The notes beneath the pieces are model-generated. The model searched no databases, was not told where the DNA came from, and worked only from the letters and a program-made list of their open reading frames with translations. A DNA stretch of 64,000 nt, taken from Gammaproteobacteria bacterium (lineage in GTDB: Bacteria > Pseudomonadota > Gammaproteobacteria > S012-40). Position 1 is the stretch's first letter, and every line of letters begins with the position of its first letter. Position numbers and translations under genes: made by a program. The stretch spans positions 1 through 64,000 of the forward strand of contig JAOUMY010000001.1 of NCBI GenBank assembly GCA_029881255.1, written 5' to 3'. This document shows positions 4,227-46,176 of the stretch, one piece after another.

Positions 4227-4968
4227 ATGAAAAAGAAAGCTAGCCCATTTATGACAGCTCTGCGTGAAGAAATTCGTTTGCGTGGCTATAGTATAAAAAC
4301 AGAGAAGACTTATCTCGAATGGACTCGTCAATACATACGTTTTATAAAGCACAAACACCCAAGTGAAGTTGGCGCAGCTGGCGTAAAAGCTTTTTTAACG
4401 TTTTTAGCCGTCAAGAAAAACGTGGCGATCAATACGCAGAAATCGGCGTTGAACGCACTCAATTTTTTGTATGCAAAACACCTAAAAATTGAACTCGGTG
4501 ATCTTGGTTTTCAACTGGCGACACGTCAGCGAATTCTGCCAAGTGTTTTGACACCGGTTGAAGTGAAGCAAATTCTCGATCAACTTTCGGGGCGTAATCT
4601 TTTGATTGTTGAATTGCTATACGGTAGCGGTTTGCGCACATCCATACACCGGCGAGCTATGTCGACATCATTTGCACTACACCGTAGTGCGTAAGTTTGT
4701 AAAAATTGCGGTTCGCCAAGCCGGTATCGACTATAAGCGCGTCAACACTCATACCTTTAGACATTCCTTTGCGACCCATATGTTGGCGAACGGAACAGAT
4801 ATCCGCTCTGTCCAGGAGATGCTCGGACACAATGATGTCAAGACGACGCAGATTTATACCCACGTATTAGGGCAACACTTTGCAGGTAGTCAGAGCCCGC
4901 TTGATCAAATTCGCGAGGATCAGGCGCCGTATTTGTCTCGATATGCTTGTACAGCCGCAGCATGCTGA
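4227..4968 (+). pseudogene. intI: Integron integrase, internally deleted and frameshifted
   Basis: Two overlapping frames make up one IntI-type tyrosine recombinase. Frame 1 (4227-4637, about 137 residues) holds the N-terminal core-binding domain (LREEIRLRGYSIKTEKTY) and ends at LLYGSGLR, the first catalytic arginine. Frame 2 resumes at about 4636 with [17 protein letters not shown] and continues through the second catalytic box [10 protein letters not shown], the LGHNDV histidine and the tyrosine in [12 protein letters not shown]. Roughly 80 residues between them, including the conserved lysine hairpin and the IntI-specific insertion, are missing and the join is out of frame, so the protein cannot be made intact. 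The frame closes at 4968 inside the pyrE 3' end; a normal integrase would stop near the SPLD motif, so the original stop may also be lost. Promoter and ribosome-binding site look intact. Confidence 0.92.
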
Positions 4969-16449: not shown

Positions 16450-16476
16450 AAAAAAAAGCGTCGCATGATGCGACGC
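16450..16476 (-). terminator. Rho-independent terminator after the decaheme gene
   Basis: GCGTCGCA-TGA-TGCGACGC at 16458-16476 is a perfect 8 bp stem; read on the minus strand it is followed by eight T residues (A-run at 16450-16457). It lies 38 bp downstream of the stop of the multiheme lipoprotein gene. Confidence 0.9.
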
Positions 16477-16513
16477 CCGGCAGAAAAGTTTTCAACCCCT
16501 GGATATCGTTAAT

Positions 16514-19500
16514 CTAGAAAGGCAATGTCGCCGAATTGCTGACCCAGATGCTGTACTGGGTATTGGCTTGATCGACTAACATTTGCTTCCAGGCAATATA
16601 GGTTGCGCCCATGGGCGTGACCGCTATATCCGGCGCAACGGTGTATCCATTCACATTCAGTTGATTGACTACCACAGGCTGAGGCGCAGAAGCCCAGCCT
16701 ATTTGTGGCGTGTAGTGTTTGGTGTAAAGAACGCTTTGGCCTGTTACATCACTTACCCATGCAGCGATTGCCTCACCGTTAGGGCGCATTAACAATGTGG
16801 GATCAGACTCGTAATTTTCATTGAGATTACCCAAGCGAGCAGCAGGCTCCCAGTTCCCCAGCATCGGACTGAAGCGACTGGAATACACGTTATAACGCGG
16901 ACCACTCAATCCCTGGCTTTGCCCCTGCACCCACACAGCCATTGCTTCGCCCTGCACGTTGGAAACGATCTTCGGCTTGCCAGACAATGTGTTTGGCAGA
17001 GAAATCAGGTTTTGCCAGCCAAACGGATTGTTTGGCGCATAGGCATAGAGCCCGCTGTCATTAAACCCGACTACACCATTGATACCCGCGATTGCAAACA
17101 CCTGTCCCTGACCAGTGGCAGCGATATCCAGTGAAATCGGTACCGTAACCTGGACCGGTAACTGTGGTAATGCTTTGTCCTGACTCCATCCAGTCGCCTG
17201 AGTGAAATCGTTAACATAAACATACAGAGTCATACCGCCCGAACTGTTATTTAACAACTCCTGGCGCGCGATAAAAACGCGGCCCTGAGCATCGACTACG
17301 GGTCGACTGAACTGTGCCGAGTCGCTGACTTCGAGGGTACGGGTTTCACCCCAGATGGTACCGCTACGATAGACTCGCGCATTGAGATTGATCTGATTTG
17401 GTCCAGACGGTCTGCGCCAAACCGCAGTAAGCACTTCATTATTCAACAACAGATAGTATTGACCGTCGACCGCGCCTACACGCGTTGGCGCCGTCCATGT
17501 ACCTTGATTCGTGCCTTCACTGAAGAACAGCTCGCCCTGCTTGCTCCACAAGGCATAGGTGTTTCCGGTCAACTGCGATACCTGAATCTGCACCATGCTC
17601 GCATTCAACATTTCTGCGCGTGGCGCGGGCAGTTTTTCACGCCAGGCCGTGCCTTCAGAAGAATAATAGACATGGTTTTCGCCCAGCTCGTAGCGCCCGG
17701 TAAATCCGTTAAATTGCGAATGCTTCACCAGCGACAAATAGAGATTGTTATCGGTCACCTTTAGTTGTGGCCCGTGAACATAATCATTGCTGCTGTTAAC
17801 TGTGGTGCTCGACCACACACTGACCGGCATCGACCAGTTACCCGTCGGCCCCGAGTTGATCGGCGTGCCACCTATCGCTGGAAACCATGCCTGTACCGTG
17901 TGGCACTGTTCGCATTGATTGGATGAAGCAATATGATTCGGACTCTTTCCTGTAGACGTTACACCGTTGTGACACTGGAAACATGAACCCAATGCCTGGT
18001 TGTGATCAAACATGATCGCGGGTATCCACATTGTTGTGGAGTGACAGGCTTCGCATACATCCGTGGTTTGTAAATGCGCGATGGATTTACCCATCGCCAC
18101 AAAGTTGTTGTGACAGCTGCTACAGCTACCGATAACTTGCGAGTGATCCACGACTTGTACTGTAGGCGAACCACCAATGTGGCAACTAAAGCATTGGTTG
18201 GTCGCCGGAATATGATTGGCCGGACGAGGCGTGGTTGGCGTAATCACTCCCACAGGTGTGCCCGGTTGCGTGGTTGTCGTAAACCAGTTCAACGTGCTAT
18301 GACACTGCGCGCACTGGTTCGATGACGGAATATGGAAGGCGCTCTTACCTGTTGCCAACACACCGTTATGACAGCTCTCACAGGTACCGACGACTTGTGC
18401 GTGATCGACCTTGATCGCTGGCACCCACGCCGTCGTCATGTGACAGCTGGCGCAGAAACTCGTGGTCGGCAAATGACTGACGCTCTTGAAGTGACAGGAC
18501 TCACACGGACCGATGACTTGCGTGTGATCGACAATCACAGAACCGGTTTGAAAATGACAGGCGTTGCATTGATTTGTCGATGCGATATGTCCAGGTGGTT
18601 TTGGCTGTGTTGGATTGATAGGCGACGGTGTAATAATCGAACCTGGCCCACCGAGTTTGCCCGCGAAAAACATTTCGTATAACACAGCCTGCGCAGTTCG
18701 GTTGGCTTTTCTCCAGGTGATGACCGGCGAGTTGCCGCGCAGAGCAAGATCGGGCTCTTCCGCTACAACAACAGGACCGGGATAAGTGGTTACCAGTTCC
18801 GGAACATTCCAACCGGTGTTAGCCATAAAGTGCGCCGTAAACAATTCGCTGGTCTGCGGCGAGTTCTCTACCCAGGCAAGTGTCATCTCGCCGACGCTAT
18901 CCACCACAGCATCAAGACTGTTTAAATAAGTAGGTATCTGATTTCCAGGCGCGGTACCGATGGGACCACGAAAAACCGGTGCGCTAACCGCTTCCGGTGG
19001 CGTCCATCCCTGCATCGGGATATAACGGCTGACATAAATAAGAGAATAGGTGTTGATATTGTCACGTTGTTCTTCCACCCACGCGACTACCGCATCACCA
19101 CGCGCATTGCTTGCAAGCGCGAAGGGTTCTAATTGGGTACGATCGTTATTGAACAGATTGTCATCAATGTTCTGTCCGGTAGACCAGAAGCTTTGTTGAA
19201 AATCATAAGCGAACAAACCATCACCACTGATCGCGTCTGTCACATGCACAACCATTTGCGCCATGCCCGGCTGACCTGAAGTGACCAACTCCAAACCGGC
19301 AATGAGCTCTGAACCCAATGGCATAGGTGGACGCGCAACAATCACGTTACTCCAGCCAAACGAGGAAAGCGTCGCGCTATAAATACCGCGTGATGCGCTG
19401 ATTTCTTCCTGCCATGCAAGGAGTATCTGGCCACTGGCATCCATTTGCGGACGCGTGGAACTCACGAAACTACCGTTGCGCGTCAAGGTGAACACCTGAG

Positions 19501-20158
19501 ACCAGATATTCGATGTCTGATATCGTTTCGCCTCGATCACAAATTGATTGATTCCAGTCTCTCTCACCCACATGGCGGCTGCGCCACCCTGGGCGTTTCT
19601 GACTATCCAGGCCTGTTTGCCTTGTCCCAGCAAAACAGGTTGGCTCCAGCGTGTGACTGCGGAATAAACGCTGGCATAAATACTTTGATTCTGAACCCAG
19701 ACGGCGTAAGCCTGTCCGGAAACATTGTCTGTTACGATATCAGGCAGCGTGGAAAAAGACTGTTGCAGTGGAGGGACGGGTGACTCCGGTTGCCATGCAC
19801 CAAAACTACCCTTGGTTAGCACGGCGGTAACACCGCCCATGTATTGTCCGGTGAAGGGATTGAGATCGGTATGTGTGCGCCAGCGTACGAAGGTGCTGCC
19901 ATTCGCACTGGTGGAAACCATCGGTCCGTGAAAAAAGCCAGTGGCGGCATTTTGCAAAGAAGCAGTTCCAATTAACTCGGGAATCGTCCACGACTCAATA
20001 GTGCGTGCCCGTATTTTTGCGCGACTTTCCAGCGAGTTGTTTTCGCTTTCTTTCTGGTTTGAATTTCCTGGTGCGACAACTTCTCCGCAACCACTGAACA
20101 AGCTGAACGCCAACAAGAAAGTCAGCACACACGCCAGAGCAGATCTGTTACTCCGCAT
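16514..20158 (-). CDS. Decaheme c-type cytochrome lipoprotein with two beta-rich domains
   Basis: 1214 residues from the ATG at 20158, which has GGAGGGG about 6 bp upstream; a TTG five codons earlier is less likely. The signal peptide ends in FSGC, a lipobox, so the protein is lipid-anchored outside the cytoplasm. Ten CxxCH haem-binding motifs lie between about residues 530 and 755, each preceded by a histidine exactly seven positions before the first Cys (H-x6-C-x2-C-H). The ten units form two A-B-A-B-A modules separated by a Thr/Pro-rich linker, A being H[IL]xxx and B being DHxQxxGxC. On both sides lie related beta-rich domains (about 50-505 and 770-1214) with repeated AVWVE/AVWVQ blades that look like beta-propellers. 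It is probably an extracellular or periplasmic electron carrier or haem-bearing scaffold. No partner porin or oxidase is in the window. Confidence 0.88.
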   Translation of the reverse strand: MRSNRSALACVLTFLLAFSLFSGCGEVVAPGNSNQKESENNSLESRAKIRARTIESWTIPELIGTASLQNAATGFFHGPMVSTSANGSTFVRWRTHTDLNPFTGQYMGGVTAVLTKGSFGAWQPESPVPPLQQSFSTLPDIVTDNVSGQAYAVWVQNQSIYASVYSAVTRWSQPVLLGQGKQAWIVRNAQGGAAAMWVRETGINQFVIEAKRYQTSNIWSQVFTLTRNGSFVSSTRPQMDASGQILLAWQEEISASRGIYSATLSSFGWSNVIVARPPMPLGSELIAGLELVTSGQPGMAQMVVHVTDAISGDGLFAYDFQQSFWSTGQNIDDNLFNNDRTQLEPFALASNARGDAVVAWVEEQRDNINTYSLIYVSRYIPMQGWTPPEAVSAPVFRGPIGTAPGNQIPTYLNSLDAVVDSVGEMTLAWVENSPQTSELFTAHFMANTGWNVPELVTTYPGPVVVAEEPDLALRGNSPVITWRKANRTAQAVLYEMFFAGKLGGPGSIITPSPINPTQPKPPGHIASTNQCNACHFQTGSVIVDHTQVIGPCESCHFKSVSHLPTTSFCASCHMTTAWVPAIKVDHAQVVGTCESCHNGVLATGKSAFHIPSSNQCAQCHSTLNWFTTTTQPGTPVGVITPTTPRPANHIPATNQCFSCHIGGSPTVQVVDHSQVIGSCSSCHNNFVAMGKSIAHLQTTDVCEACHSTTMWIPAIMFDHNQALGSCFQCHNGVTSTGKSPNHIASSNQCEQCHTVQAWFPAIGGTPINSGPTGNWSMPVSVWSSTTVNSSNDYVHGPQLKVTDNNLYLSLVKHSQFNGFTGRYELGENHVYYSSEGTAWREKLPAPRAEMLNASMVQIQVSQLTGNTYALWSKQGELFFSEGTNQGTWTAPTRVGAVDGQYYLLLNNEVLTAVWRRPSGPNQINLNARVYRSGTIWGETRTLEVSDSAQFSRPVVDAQGRVFIARQELLNNSSGGMTLYVYVNDFTQATGWSQDKALPQLPVQVTVPISLDIAATGQGQVFAIAGINGVVGFNDSGLYAYAPNNPFGWQNLISLPNTLSGKPKIVSNVQGEAMAVWVQGQSQGLSGPRYNVYSSRFSPMLGNWEPAARLGNLNENYESDPTLLMRPNGEAIAAWVSDVTGQSVLYTKHYTPQIGWASAPQPVVVNQLNVNGYTVAPDIAVTPMGATYIAWKQMLVDQANTQYSIWVSNSATLPF

Positions 20159-20376
20159 GATTCCCCTCCACAACCCACATACTTATAAATTATTCGAACC
20201 AGACAATATTTTCCCGATCCAATACTGTCCATGCGTGGGGCCATAGTGATGGAGGTCAATGAAATCTTGCTGAACTGAAACAGTTTTTAGTCTGAAATGC
20301 AGTAACTTAGACTGTGTTATTTGACACAAGCGTGAAATGAAAATGAATAATAAGTGTATCTATTTTAAATAGCGCT

Positions 20377-42814: not shown

Positions 42815-45800
42815 TTAAAAAACCACGCGCCACAACTGTTTCGCTAGTGATCTGGTATTGATATAACCTGCCCTCACCGCCCAATACGTCGTTCCCGGTA
42901 AATCAATCAAACCAACGTTTATATAGGCATCGTCACCAAACCAGTCACCGCCAAAGTTACGCTGCCCATAACTCACGCGGATCTTATTTGCGAGCAAATT
43001 GGCGTAGACGCGAAAACCCACATTTTTATCGCCATGAGGTAACCATTCGGATTCTGACCGTTGCATATTAAAGGTCAAGCCCGCACCCATCGACCCAAGC
43101 ATTACGCTGTAACGCCGAAAATCGTAATTCGCACTGGCCTGGTAATATGGTTCCCAGGCACCGTTGACACGTCGACCAGCAAGCGGCGTAAACCTCAGAT
43201 TAATATGATGCTGCCCGGTCAGACGATAGCTAGGCTCCCAGCTAAACTCGTATCCACCACTCAAGATGTTGTAGTTCGCCTCATATGGTAGAACCAGGTG
43301 CATGGGATTGTAGTTAGCGTACGGCGCGGTAGATTGCGTCCACGACCGTTTCTTATTATTTCCCGCCAGTGAGTTACCCATGAGTATGGCCAGAAATGAA
43401 ATCGTATCCACTGTCTTAACGATCTGCTCTCCAGCAACCCCTTTCTTTTTGTCCCGTCGCGCCTGGGCAAGAACCTCGGCTTCTCTATCCTGAATATCGA
43501 TAATCCTGTCGCTGATTTTTTTCAACAGTGGTTGATACCAGGTCAGTACATAACCATCACTGTTATTGATAATAGTTCGAATTTCCGAATCGGTTCTGTC
43601 ATCGACAAACCCACGCTTCTTCAGCCTGGCAAGAAAAGGCTTGAAATCGGCCGCACCTTTATAATTTCCCTGATCGTCAAGATCAATCAGCGCCGAGAAA
43701 ATCAGGTCGAGTTTGCGATACTGATCATCGCTATGATCATCCACTGAACACGTCGCAGCCGAAGTCGTGTCCACAAAAATTGCAACTCCGTGAGACGCAA
43801 GATTATTGCCTTGCGCGAGACCATCGTAGACACGGGTTTCGAGATCCTGGCGTGCCTGTGTTTCGCAAGATTTACGTTTTGGTCCAGCCTTGATGCCTTT
43901 ACACCGTTGATCGATGCTCGCCTGGAAGGCGTCAACTAATGTACTGTGACAGTTACCTAGACCTCGCTCCTGTAGCCAACGCCAACTGGCTTGCTGAGCA
44001 CCGGTATTGAGTCTCTCAAGCCTAACAAAGCGCTGGAACAGAAATGACGCCTTTCTTACATCGACGAAGCCGAGCATATCAAAGTACGCGCGAAAAAAAG
44101 CGGGGGTACAGGCTTCCGTGCGCCCGCCTTTTTCAAATCCCGATAACAACTGACTCTGCATTTCACTACCGGATTTCGAACAATAGTATTGCGACAGATT
44201 CAATAAGGCATCGAATACACCCACATAGTAGTCAAACTCCCTAAAATACGGGTCAAGAAAGGCAGCAAAATGACCAAGAAAACTTCCAGTCAATGGTACA
44301 TAACGATCGGAACGAAACAAGACGCGATCGGAAAACTTGTTTTCATTGAGACGTGCAACACGCAATTTCAACGAATCTTCACCGAGCTTGTCTGCGACTT
44401 TTTCCAACATGCAGATAACACGCTGGCGTTGTTTCATCACGATATCTGACGAGATGCGATGTGTTGAATTCATGAGGTAGCCGGGACAGTTGCCAAAAAT
44501 AGGCGATCTGTCCGGCTCGATATTGACACGGAATCCCCGGTACATGGACTCAAGCACGGCACTTTCAAAGGCGAGACAGTATGCGGTCAGCGAATGCACA
44601 TCATTATCCAGCGCTATACGACAGGCATTCATCAATCCGGTGTTGCTCAATGTTTGGAACAGGGCGTCAAAATCAATTTCACCAAAGCTGGCGCCTGTAC
44701 TCTCCAGCTTGGCCAATGTCGCTTCCACTGCGCTTTGGGTATTGGCTGACCAGTCACCGCGACGATAGAGATTAAATAACTCCTGATCTCCCGCAGACGC
44801 CGTCGTCCCTACCATATATTGAGCCAGCCCGATCAGACCATCAGAGACTATTCCCGCATGTTCGTTACTTTGGCGTTGGTTTTCCTCACCACGCAGATTG
44901 GAATGCTCCATATAAATATAGTTATAGCGCCGTCCTTCCTGTTCGTAACGGCTGCGCGTATCGACATCATATTGCCAGGGCTCGGCAATCGCGCTGGCAA
45001 GGCCTAGCGGTTTGTTATCGAATGAACCGCCATCTTTGAAGCTTCCGCTGCGCACCTGCATATGCGCGGCTGGACAACGTGGATCATCGACACCAGATGA
45101 GCTGGCATTTTCATCCGGCAAACAGTAGTCGAGATGAATCGCGGAAAAGGCGCCGGGCACAGAGCTGGAGGCCTTTGCAAATTCAACAATGGTTTCGACT
45201 GGAATATTGTGTCCATCGCGCGTCCTTACACCTACCGGATATACCACGCGCCCTATCAAGGGATGTGTTGTATTTTTGGTATTCGATAGAAATACGGCGC
45301 GTGACTTGCCCTTTTCACGCAGCGTCTTTAGCCGAAAACTAACGGCAACGCGGGAGACACTGAGCGAAATACCTTTTAGCTCGACTTTATCCGGATTGAC
45401 CCTGGTCATGACAAATGCCAGGGGCACTTCACAGCCATCCTGCCAGATATCCTTATCCATATGCGTCTGCAGGAGTTCAAGAACGCGATTCAGAAATTTC
45501 CGCGACAGCAGAAATTCGTCTTCCTCATATTGATCATTCTCTGGCATCAACTCCCTGATACCGGTTTTCAACCATAACGCTTCAAATAGATTCTGCTTGT
45601 CGACATTCGAAAGTACGCCAGGCAATGCAGCCAGTTTACTCTCGTCCATACACCACACCATGGCACTGAACAAAGCATTTACACTCCCGGCGGACGTGCC
45701 CGACACACCTTTTAACTCGGGATAATTACGATTTTGGAAACCTTGCTGCTTTATCTTCTTCAATATATTGATGAGCGCCCAGTTGTATCCGGCTTCATAG

Positions 45801-45958
45801 GCACCGAGACTGATCGCGCCACTGATAGCGAGCGCTATGGGCACTTCTTGCTGGGAACTGGTATCGGCGTCAGCGCTGAGACTCGATGTTGAAATGAGAA
45901 AACAGGCAAAAAGCATACATAGCAGGCCACACTTTCTAAATCTACTATTCAATGTCAT
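42815..45958 (-). CDS. Patatin-like phospholipase, large exported form
   Basis: 1047 residues from the ATG at 45958 (AAAGGGA upstream), giving a signal peptide ending at SSLSA; a longer frame upstream adds 56 unlikely residues. The patatin domain has ISGAISLGAYEAG (oxyanion loop), GTSAG with Ser89 and KDGGSFDN with Asp309 as catalytic dyad. A helical middle region of about 550 residues has no recognised match. The last 150 residues alternate polar and aromatic residues (WEPYYQASANYDFRRYSVML ... IRVSYGQRNFGG) and end in Phe, suggesting a beta-barrel or membrane-inserting end, as in type Vd-like patatin proteins, though no POTRA domain was recognised. Likely an outer-membrane or secreted lipase. 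Confidence 0.88.
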   Translation of the reverse strand: MTLNSRFRKCGLLCMLFACFLISTSSLSADADTSSQQEVPIALAISGAISLGAYEAGYNWALINILKKIKQQGFQNRNYPELKGVSGTSAGSVNALFSAMVWCMDESKLAALPGVLSNVDKQNLFEALWLKTGIRELMPENDQYEEDEFLLSRKFLNRVLELLQTHMDKDIWQDGCEVPLAFVMTRVNPDKVELKGISLSVSRVAVSFRLKTLREKGKSRAVFLSNTKNTTHPLIGRVVYPVGVRTRDGHNIPVETIVEFAKASSSVPGAFSAIHLDYCLPDENASSSGVDDPRCPAAHMQVRSGSFKDGGSFDNKPLGLASAIAEPWQYDVDTRSRYEQEGRRYNYIYMEHSNLRGEENQRQSNEHAGIVSDGLIGLAQYMVGTTASAGDQELFNLYRRGDWSANTQSAVEATLAKLESTGASFGEIDFDALFQTLSNTGLMNACRIALDNDVHSLTAYCLAFESAVLESMYRGFRVNIEPDRSPIFGNCPGYLMNSTHRISSDIVMKQRQRVICMLEKVADKLGEDSLKLRVARLNENKFSDRVLFRSDRYVPLTGSFLGHFAAFLDPYFREFDYYVGVFDALLNLSQYYCSKSGSEMQSQLLSGFEKGGRTEACTPAFFRAYFDMLGFVDVRKASFLFQRFVRLERLNTGAQQASWRWLQERGLGNCHSTLVDAFQASIDQRCKGIKAGPKRKSCETQARQDLETRVYDGLAQGNNLASHGVAIFVDTTSAATCSVDDHSDDQYRKLDLIFSALIDLDDQGNYKGAADFKPFLARLKKRGFVDDRTDSEIRTIINNSDGYVLTWYQPLLKKISDRIIDIQDREAEVLAQARRDKKKGVAGEQIVKTVDTISFLAILMGNSLAGNNKKRSWTQSTAPYANYNPMHLVLPYEANYNILSGGYEFSWEPSYRLTGQHHINLRFTPLAGRRVNGAWEPYYQASANYDFRRYSVMLGSMGAGLTFNMQRSESEWLPHGDKNVGFRVYANLLANKIRVSYGQRNFGGDWFGDDAYINVGLIDLPGTTYWAVRAGYINTRSLAKQLWRVVF

Positions 45959-46176
45959 AACATCCCTTTTAAGTTGATCGTCGCGCTCCCCGTGACGGTT
46001 GTAAAAGCCATGCGCAGTCGTTACCGTACTTTTTCCCTGAATTATAACGTCGTTTCTAAGCGACACTCCAGAGCAGATATGTCTAGTGAGCCATGAGGAT
46101 GGCGAGTATTGAATGAGAAATAACATTTGAGAAACGAAACAAATTCAGACATTATTTGAATTTTTTGGAAGAAAAG

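Follow-up and report, generated by a model that had tools for sequence, protein, structure and literature searches.

The window analysed here, a stretch of 64,000 nucleotides at positions 1 to 64,000 of contig JAOUMY010000001.1, carries on its minus strand a gene for a predicted lipoprotein whose middle third is a decahaem region set between two divergent copies of one domain. An earlier note on this DNA had described the haem motifs; the architecture around them, with a propeller-like domain on either side, was absent from it. The features of the locus are these:

16456..16478, minus strand: terminator-like hairpin of 10 pairs with a T tail, about 36 bases past the stop (sequence)
16514..20158, minus strand: coding sequence of 1,214 amino acids, with an ATG at 20158 and a GGAGGGG ribosome site just 5' of it
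16517..17863, minus strand: C-terminal domain, a homologue of the N-terminal propeller at 24% identity (fold predicted from homology)
17900..18214, minus strand: second pentahaem module A-B-A-B-A, five H-x6-CxxCH motifs, residues 654-758 (sequence, unit alignment)
18218..18283, minus strand: Thr/Pro-rich linker, in place of a B unit (unit spacing)
18299..18589, minus strand: first pentahaem module A-B-A-B-A, five H-x6-CxxCH motifs, residues 529-625 (sequence, unit alignment)
18629..20053, minus strand: N-terminal beta-propeller domain, probably of 8 blades (AlphaFold2, VIA-align)
20087..20158, minus strand: signal peptide with lipobox LFSG-C, Cys29 in the numbering of the 1219-aa frame (sequence)

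The mechanical open reading frame runs from 16514 to 20173 (TTG start at 20173; 1219 aa) and supplies the residue numbers used throughout, and translation likely starts at the ATG at 20158 rather than at the TTG. A glycine at +2 makes sorting to the outer membrane likely, and the product is probably an outer-membrane lipoprotein; comparable lipoboxes (ISGC, IVAC, WTSC, LSAC) are present in nearly all of its propeller-haem relatives. The gene lies between pyrC on one side and a chemoreceptor gene on the other, with no electron-transfer gene adjoining it among these immediate neighbours, and is probably a single transcription unit.

The ten CxxCH motifs stand at residues 536, 557, 574, 598, 621, 661, 684, 707, 731 and 754, spaced by 21, 17, 24 and 23 residues, then by 40 over the linker, then by 23, 23, 24 and 23. 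All ten have a histidine exactly seven residues before the first cysteine (H-x6-CxxCH), and these H(-7) residues are the only free histidines between residues 526 and 770, confirming the fixed-distance upstream histidine that had been proposed for every motif; when ten histidines were placed at random in 200,000 trials, no more than five haems had one at a common offset. Over 57 aligned relatives, nine of the ten never vary and the remaining one hardly does. The ten units span 17900-18589: the interval first assigned to them, 17899-18567, left out the first histidine and covers only part of a far longer gene.

Two unit types alternate, A with the consensus HIxxxNxCxxCH...W.PA and B with DHxxVxGxCxxCHNGxxATGK, in the order A-B-A-B-A, Thr/Pro linker, A-B-A-B-A. 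The alternation noted previously is thus seen twice, with the qualifications that unit 2 lacks the NGxxATGK stretch and that A1 and A6 lack the usual tryptophan. The Thr/Pro linker between the pentads is about 20 residues long, splits the haem chain and takes the place of a B unit, the distance from A to A across it being 40 residues as against the usual 47 or so. As for the duplication of the pentad claimed in the earlier note, the two copies are identical in 64 of 121 aligned columns, and the in-register pairing ranks first among 12 type-preserving pairings (339 against 326 for the next); it is no rule, however, as relatives carry 7+7, 9+3, 7+3 or 11+3 haems or have no long linker, and we reject '5+5' as a conserved two-pentahaem design. 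A recent duplication was not supported, the units scoring higher against some relative's unit than against their counterpart in the other pentad, in a comparison where the set of relatives' units is large.

The window protein fits a family of H-x6-CxxCH arrays, built from alternating A-B units with a period of about 47 residues and a histidine at -7 in each unit. Our array set comprises 98 proteins, mostly from Gammaproteobacteria, with 3,656 haem motifs and 3,258 internal units. H(-7) is found in 89% of all 3,656 motifs, and not one of the 3,258 internal haems lacks a free histidine between it and the previous CxxCH; the spacing is exactly x6 in 3,154 of the internal units (96.8%), nearly all of the rest being x7 or x8. 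Measured back from the free histidine, the gap to the preceding CxxCH is looser, at 5 to 28. With one distance fixed and the other loose, the histidine travels with the CxxCH downstream of it, and the suggestion that ten haems here have ten possible distal ligands is strongly supported. Many long arrays have first and last units that lack H(-7). Two 21-haem cytochromes of another type in the window's own genome have H(-7) at only 1 or 2 of 21 motifs, showing that multihaem proteins do not follow the rule as a matter of course.

Haem copy number across the array proteins ranges from 10 to 129 and changes by whole units, for which an open, extensible haem chain is the simplest explanation; the linear haem wire of the earlier note may fairly be inferred from this extensibility. 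Of 274 genomes sampled from the class, 29 contain array relatives (E <= 1e-20), and a scan of GTDB genomes returned 77 loci, mainly in gammaproteobacterial metagenome-assembled genomes (MAGs) and including Woeseiaceae, Amphritea, Thiodiazotropha and others. Within this gammaproteobacterial haem-array family, which is widespread, the window protein is a small member with an unusual fusion.

The reading frame with 129 CxxCH motifs (L095:1288-11112, plus strand; 3,274 aa), from the MAG Gammaproteobacteria bacterium Ww183, has a histidine at -7 in 119 of them, a signal peptide and a Gly/Met-rich tail, and contains no exact 60-base repeats. It is one of four frames, with L012:9439-12774, L017:8269-11817 and L130:1357-7572, that end in a Pro/Ala-rich and then Gly-rich tail with a terminal HM or GM, possibly an attachment or assembly signal of long arrays.

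The window's own genome (4.97 Mb) encodes Ccm-type assembly proteins and at least 13 further genes with the same haem unit. It holds four propeller-haem lipoproteins without a second propeller (L009, with 12 haems, and a tandem trio at L014 with 14, 10 and 10), arrays of 26, 27, 32, 42, 47, 63 and 66 haems, and two shorter fusions of another type with 10 and 11 haems. The giant arrays lie at L018:5914-10911 (66 haems), L016:6990-11645 (63), L017:8269-11817 (47) and L012:9439-12774 (42); N-terminal beta/PKD-like repeats precede array haem units at L011:10938-12701 (10 haems), L013:7988-10816 (32) and L017:18383-19702 (11). A conserved gene order was seen at L016:4963-15667 and L055:5220-18291, and partly at L017:2702-11817, consisting of an Fe-S flavoprotein (Fer4 plus Pyr_redox), a protein of about 290 aa, a 21-haem cytochrome of the other type, one or two giant arrays and a TPR-containing protein; the arrangement looks like an electron-transfer operon.

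We turn to the domains that flank the haems. AlphaFold2, given only four sequences, predicted an all-beta propeller for the N-terminal domain (mean pLDDT 77, pTM 0.80), and VIA-align matched the model to a WD40 propeller with Z 23.6 over 325 residues at 3.2 A and to PLL/PHL lectins with Z of about 18-19, placing it among beta-propellers of the PLL-type lectin or WD40-like kind, at about 12% identity to the PLL-type lectins. The model's approximately 31 strands, together with the best-matching propellers, indicate that the blades probably number eight, and the C-terminal domain is predicted to share the fold from its homology to the N-terminal copy. No Pfam family covers either domain. Only W, G, P and A residues are invariant in them, to the exclusion of any catalytic His, Asp, Glu or Cys, which suggests that the propellers serve structure or binding and argues against catalysis.

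Fusions of propeller and haem units were found only in the window's own order (13 genomes of the order); outside it, among 369 genomes sampled across the class, the propeller matches all lack haems. The full propeller-haem-propeller arrangement occurs in three genera of that one order, represented by the window, by L047 with 10 haems and by L048 with 7+7 around a linker. The C-terminal propellers group together in a single clade (94% bootstrap), so the three-part protein was probably in place before the three genera diverged; the genera differ in haem number and in where the linker lies, which makes '5+5' a variant and not the design. In a 1,559-aa frame at L049:2-4681 the propeller domain occurs in tandem, in three copies or more, and haem motifs are absent.

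The haem domain itself yielded a weak AlphaFold2 model (57 sequences; mean pLDDT 67, pTM 0.33), and this model found no matches in the PDB with Foldseek and VIA. OmcS and OmcE likewise have no Foldseek relatives beyond themselves and close homologues (PMC9473688), so the missing fold match says little and we treat it as neutral. Searched by sequence against the PDB, the decahaem domain returned nothing below E 0.1; a profile search finds MtrC and MtrA weakly, in loose alignments where the register between histidine and CxxCH is lost, and OmcS, OmcE and OmcZ are absent among its matches.

The window protein scores 36.4 bits against Cytochrome_C7 (PF14522; cut-off 24.8) and also exceeds the cut-off of PF14537; like the cytochrome c7 and class III proteins that these profiles describe, it is made of CxxCH units with an upstream histidine, and on profile evidence the array building block belongs with that group. 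Classic members have three to four haems in a compact domain, whereas the window protein has two A-B-A-B-A chains between propellers. Scores for the decahaem families are far below their cut-offs, at 29.9 bits against 192.2 for DmsE/MtrA (TIGR03508) and 17.7 against 209.3 for the outer-surface OmcA/MtrC (TIGR03507). MtrA has no propellers and is not known to have a uniform one-His-per-unit spacing in its sequence. The MtrB/PioB-type porin family PF11854 has no match in the window's own genome (99.45% complete), which makes porin-cytochrome wiring of the MtrAB kind unlikely. MtrA has been described as a likely product of gene duplication, related to the pentahaem chain of NrfB and with its haems in a line (PMC7198977).

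With the OmcS, OmcE and OmcZ filaments the window protein would have in common bis-His haem chains and little secondary structure; window-type arrays differ in that they increase haem number inside one chain. Very long single-polypeptide arrays have been quoted as records in Methanoperedens (113 haems) and Desulfuromonas acetexigens (86) (PMC7082337, PMC12133095), with 113 called the highest recorded in 2020 (PMC7082337), whereas among the array relatives of the window gene the count goes up to 129, in a MAG from Gammaproteobacteria. In a cytochrome island of Desulfovibrio ferrophilus, propeller lipoproteins are encoded beside multihaem cytochromes (PMC8322314), but there propeller and cytochrome are separate proteins and here they are one polypeptide. 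Long haem arrays as such are already known in other lineages (PMC7082337, PMC12133095); for a one-His-per-haem array or a propeller-haem-propeller lipoprotein we found no description in the open-access full-text literature, whose coverage is incomplete, and both are apparently undescribed there.

Taken together, we think it reasonably probable that the window gene encodes an exported decahaem protein, anchored by lipid, that relays electrons and carries propellers as docking heads, its haems bis-His-ligated through H(-7). The N-terminal cysteine would be lipidated, as the lipobox predicts, and the genome's Ccm system would attach ten haems c. Histidine conservation across the arrays suggests that both ligands of a haem come from the unit to which it belongs, namely the histidine of the CxxCH and the one seven residues upstream, which would give ten bis-His low-spin haems in two five-haem chains with a flexible linker between them. 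Electrons could hop along both chains, and the propeller ends may act as docking or binding heads that set the chain against a partner, possibly a surface glycan, a mineral or a giant haem array made by the same cell; the giant arrays of the window's own genome, some of which share the putative operon with genes for a TPR-containing protein and an Fe-S flavoprotein, are candidates for this role. Nothing in the window protein itself points to a catalytic site.

The same bis-His chain could be wired differently, with each upstream histidine binding a neighbouring haem or with pairs swapped within an A-B dihaem. Known filament cytochromes offer a precedent, as their distal histidines need not be local and in OmcS and OmcE may even be supplied by another subunit (PMC9473688), and the first and last units of many long arrays, which lack H(-7), would suit such an arrangement. 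We nevertheless regard it as unlikely: the x6 spacing is fixed in 96.8% of internal units while the distance to the previous haem ranges from 5 to 28, and with five histidines per five-haem module in the window protein, moving every histidine over by one haem would leave the haem at one end without a distal ligand.

A different doubt concerns conduction itself, for the decahaem region might be an electron store or redox buffer whose chains need touch neither each other nor the outside. The flexible Thr/Pro linker of about 20 residues that splits the chain and the absence of a partner gene beside the window gene both favour a store; the paired propeller ends, however, suggest docking, and short, regular chains of close haems in multihaem cytochromes generally conduct, so that we consider storage a rather poor prospect. 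Very improbable, in our estimation, is a propeller enzyme of the polysaccharide lyase or sialidase kind with the haem chain as its electron outlet. Sialidases and polysaccharide lyases do appear among the Foldseek matches, but such matches can reflect the common propeller shape alone, and the propellers have neither a conserved catalytic residue nor a Pfam enzyme family.

Beyond the relay proposed for the window gene, we advance more tentatively, at somewhat less than even chances, a general picture in which the A-B unit is a self-contained, linearly extensible bis-His block, each unit holding both ligands, from which cells build single-chain wires of any length, up to 129 haems; one order would have set a short stretch of such a wire between a pair of propellers, giving an electron connector shaped like a dumbbell. 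If true, a fixed ligand rule per unit combined with free copy number would amount to a modular electrical wire of natural origin. Compared with irregular multihaem folds, such an array would lend itself better to understanding and to construction, and whether both ligands lie in each unit becomes a directly testable question. The propeller-haem-propeller fusion would be a new way to mount a haem wire on the cell surface.

Elsewhere in the window, a short reading frame at 4227-4694 (plus strand) resembles by eye the N-terminal half of an integron-type tyrosine recombinase and stops early, possibly a broken integrase. A 1,103-aa exported protein at 42815-46126 (minus strand) has, also by eye, a patatin-like start (GAISLGAYEAG...GTSAGS), and a patatin-like start was seen as well beside the 32-haem array, at L013:5073-7505.
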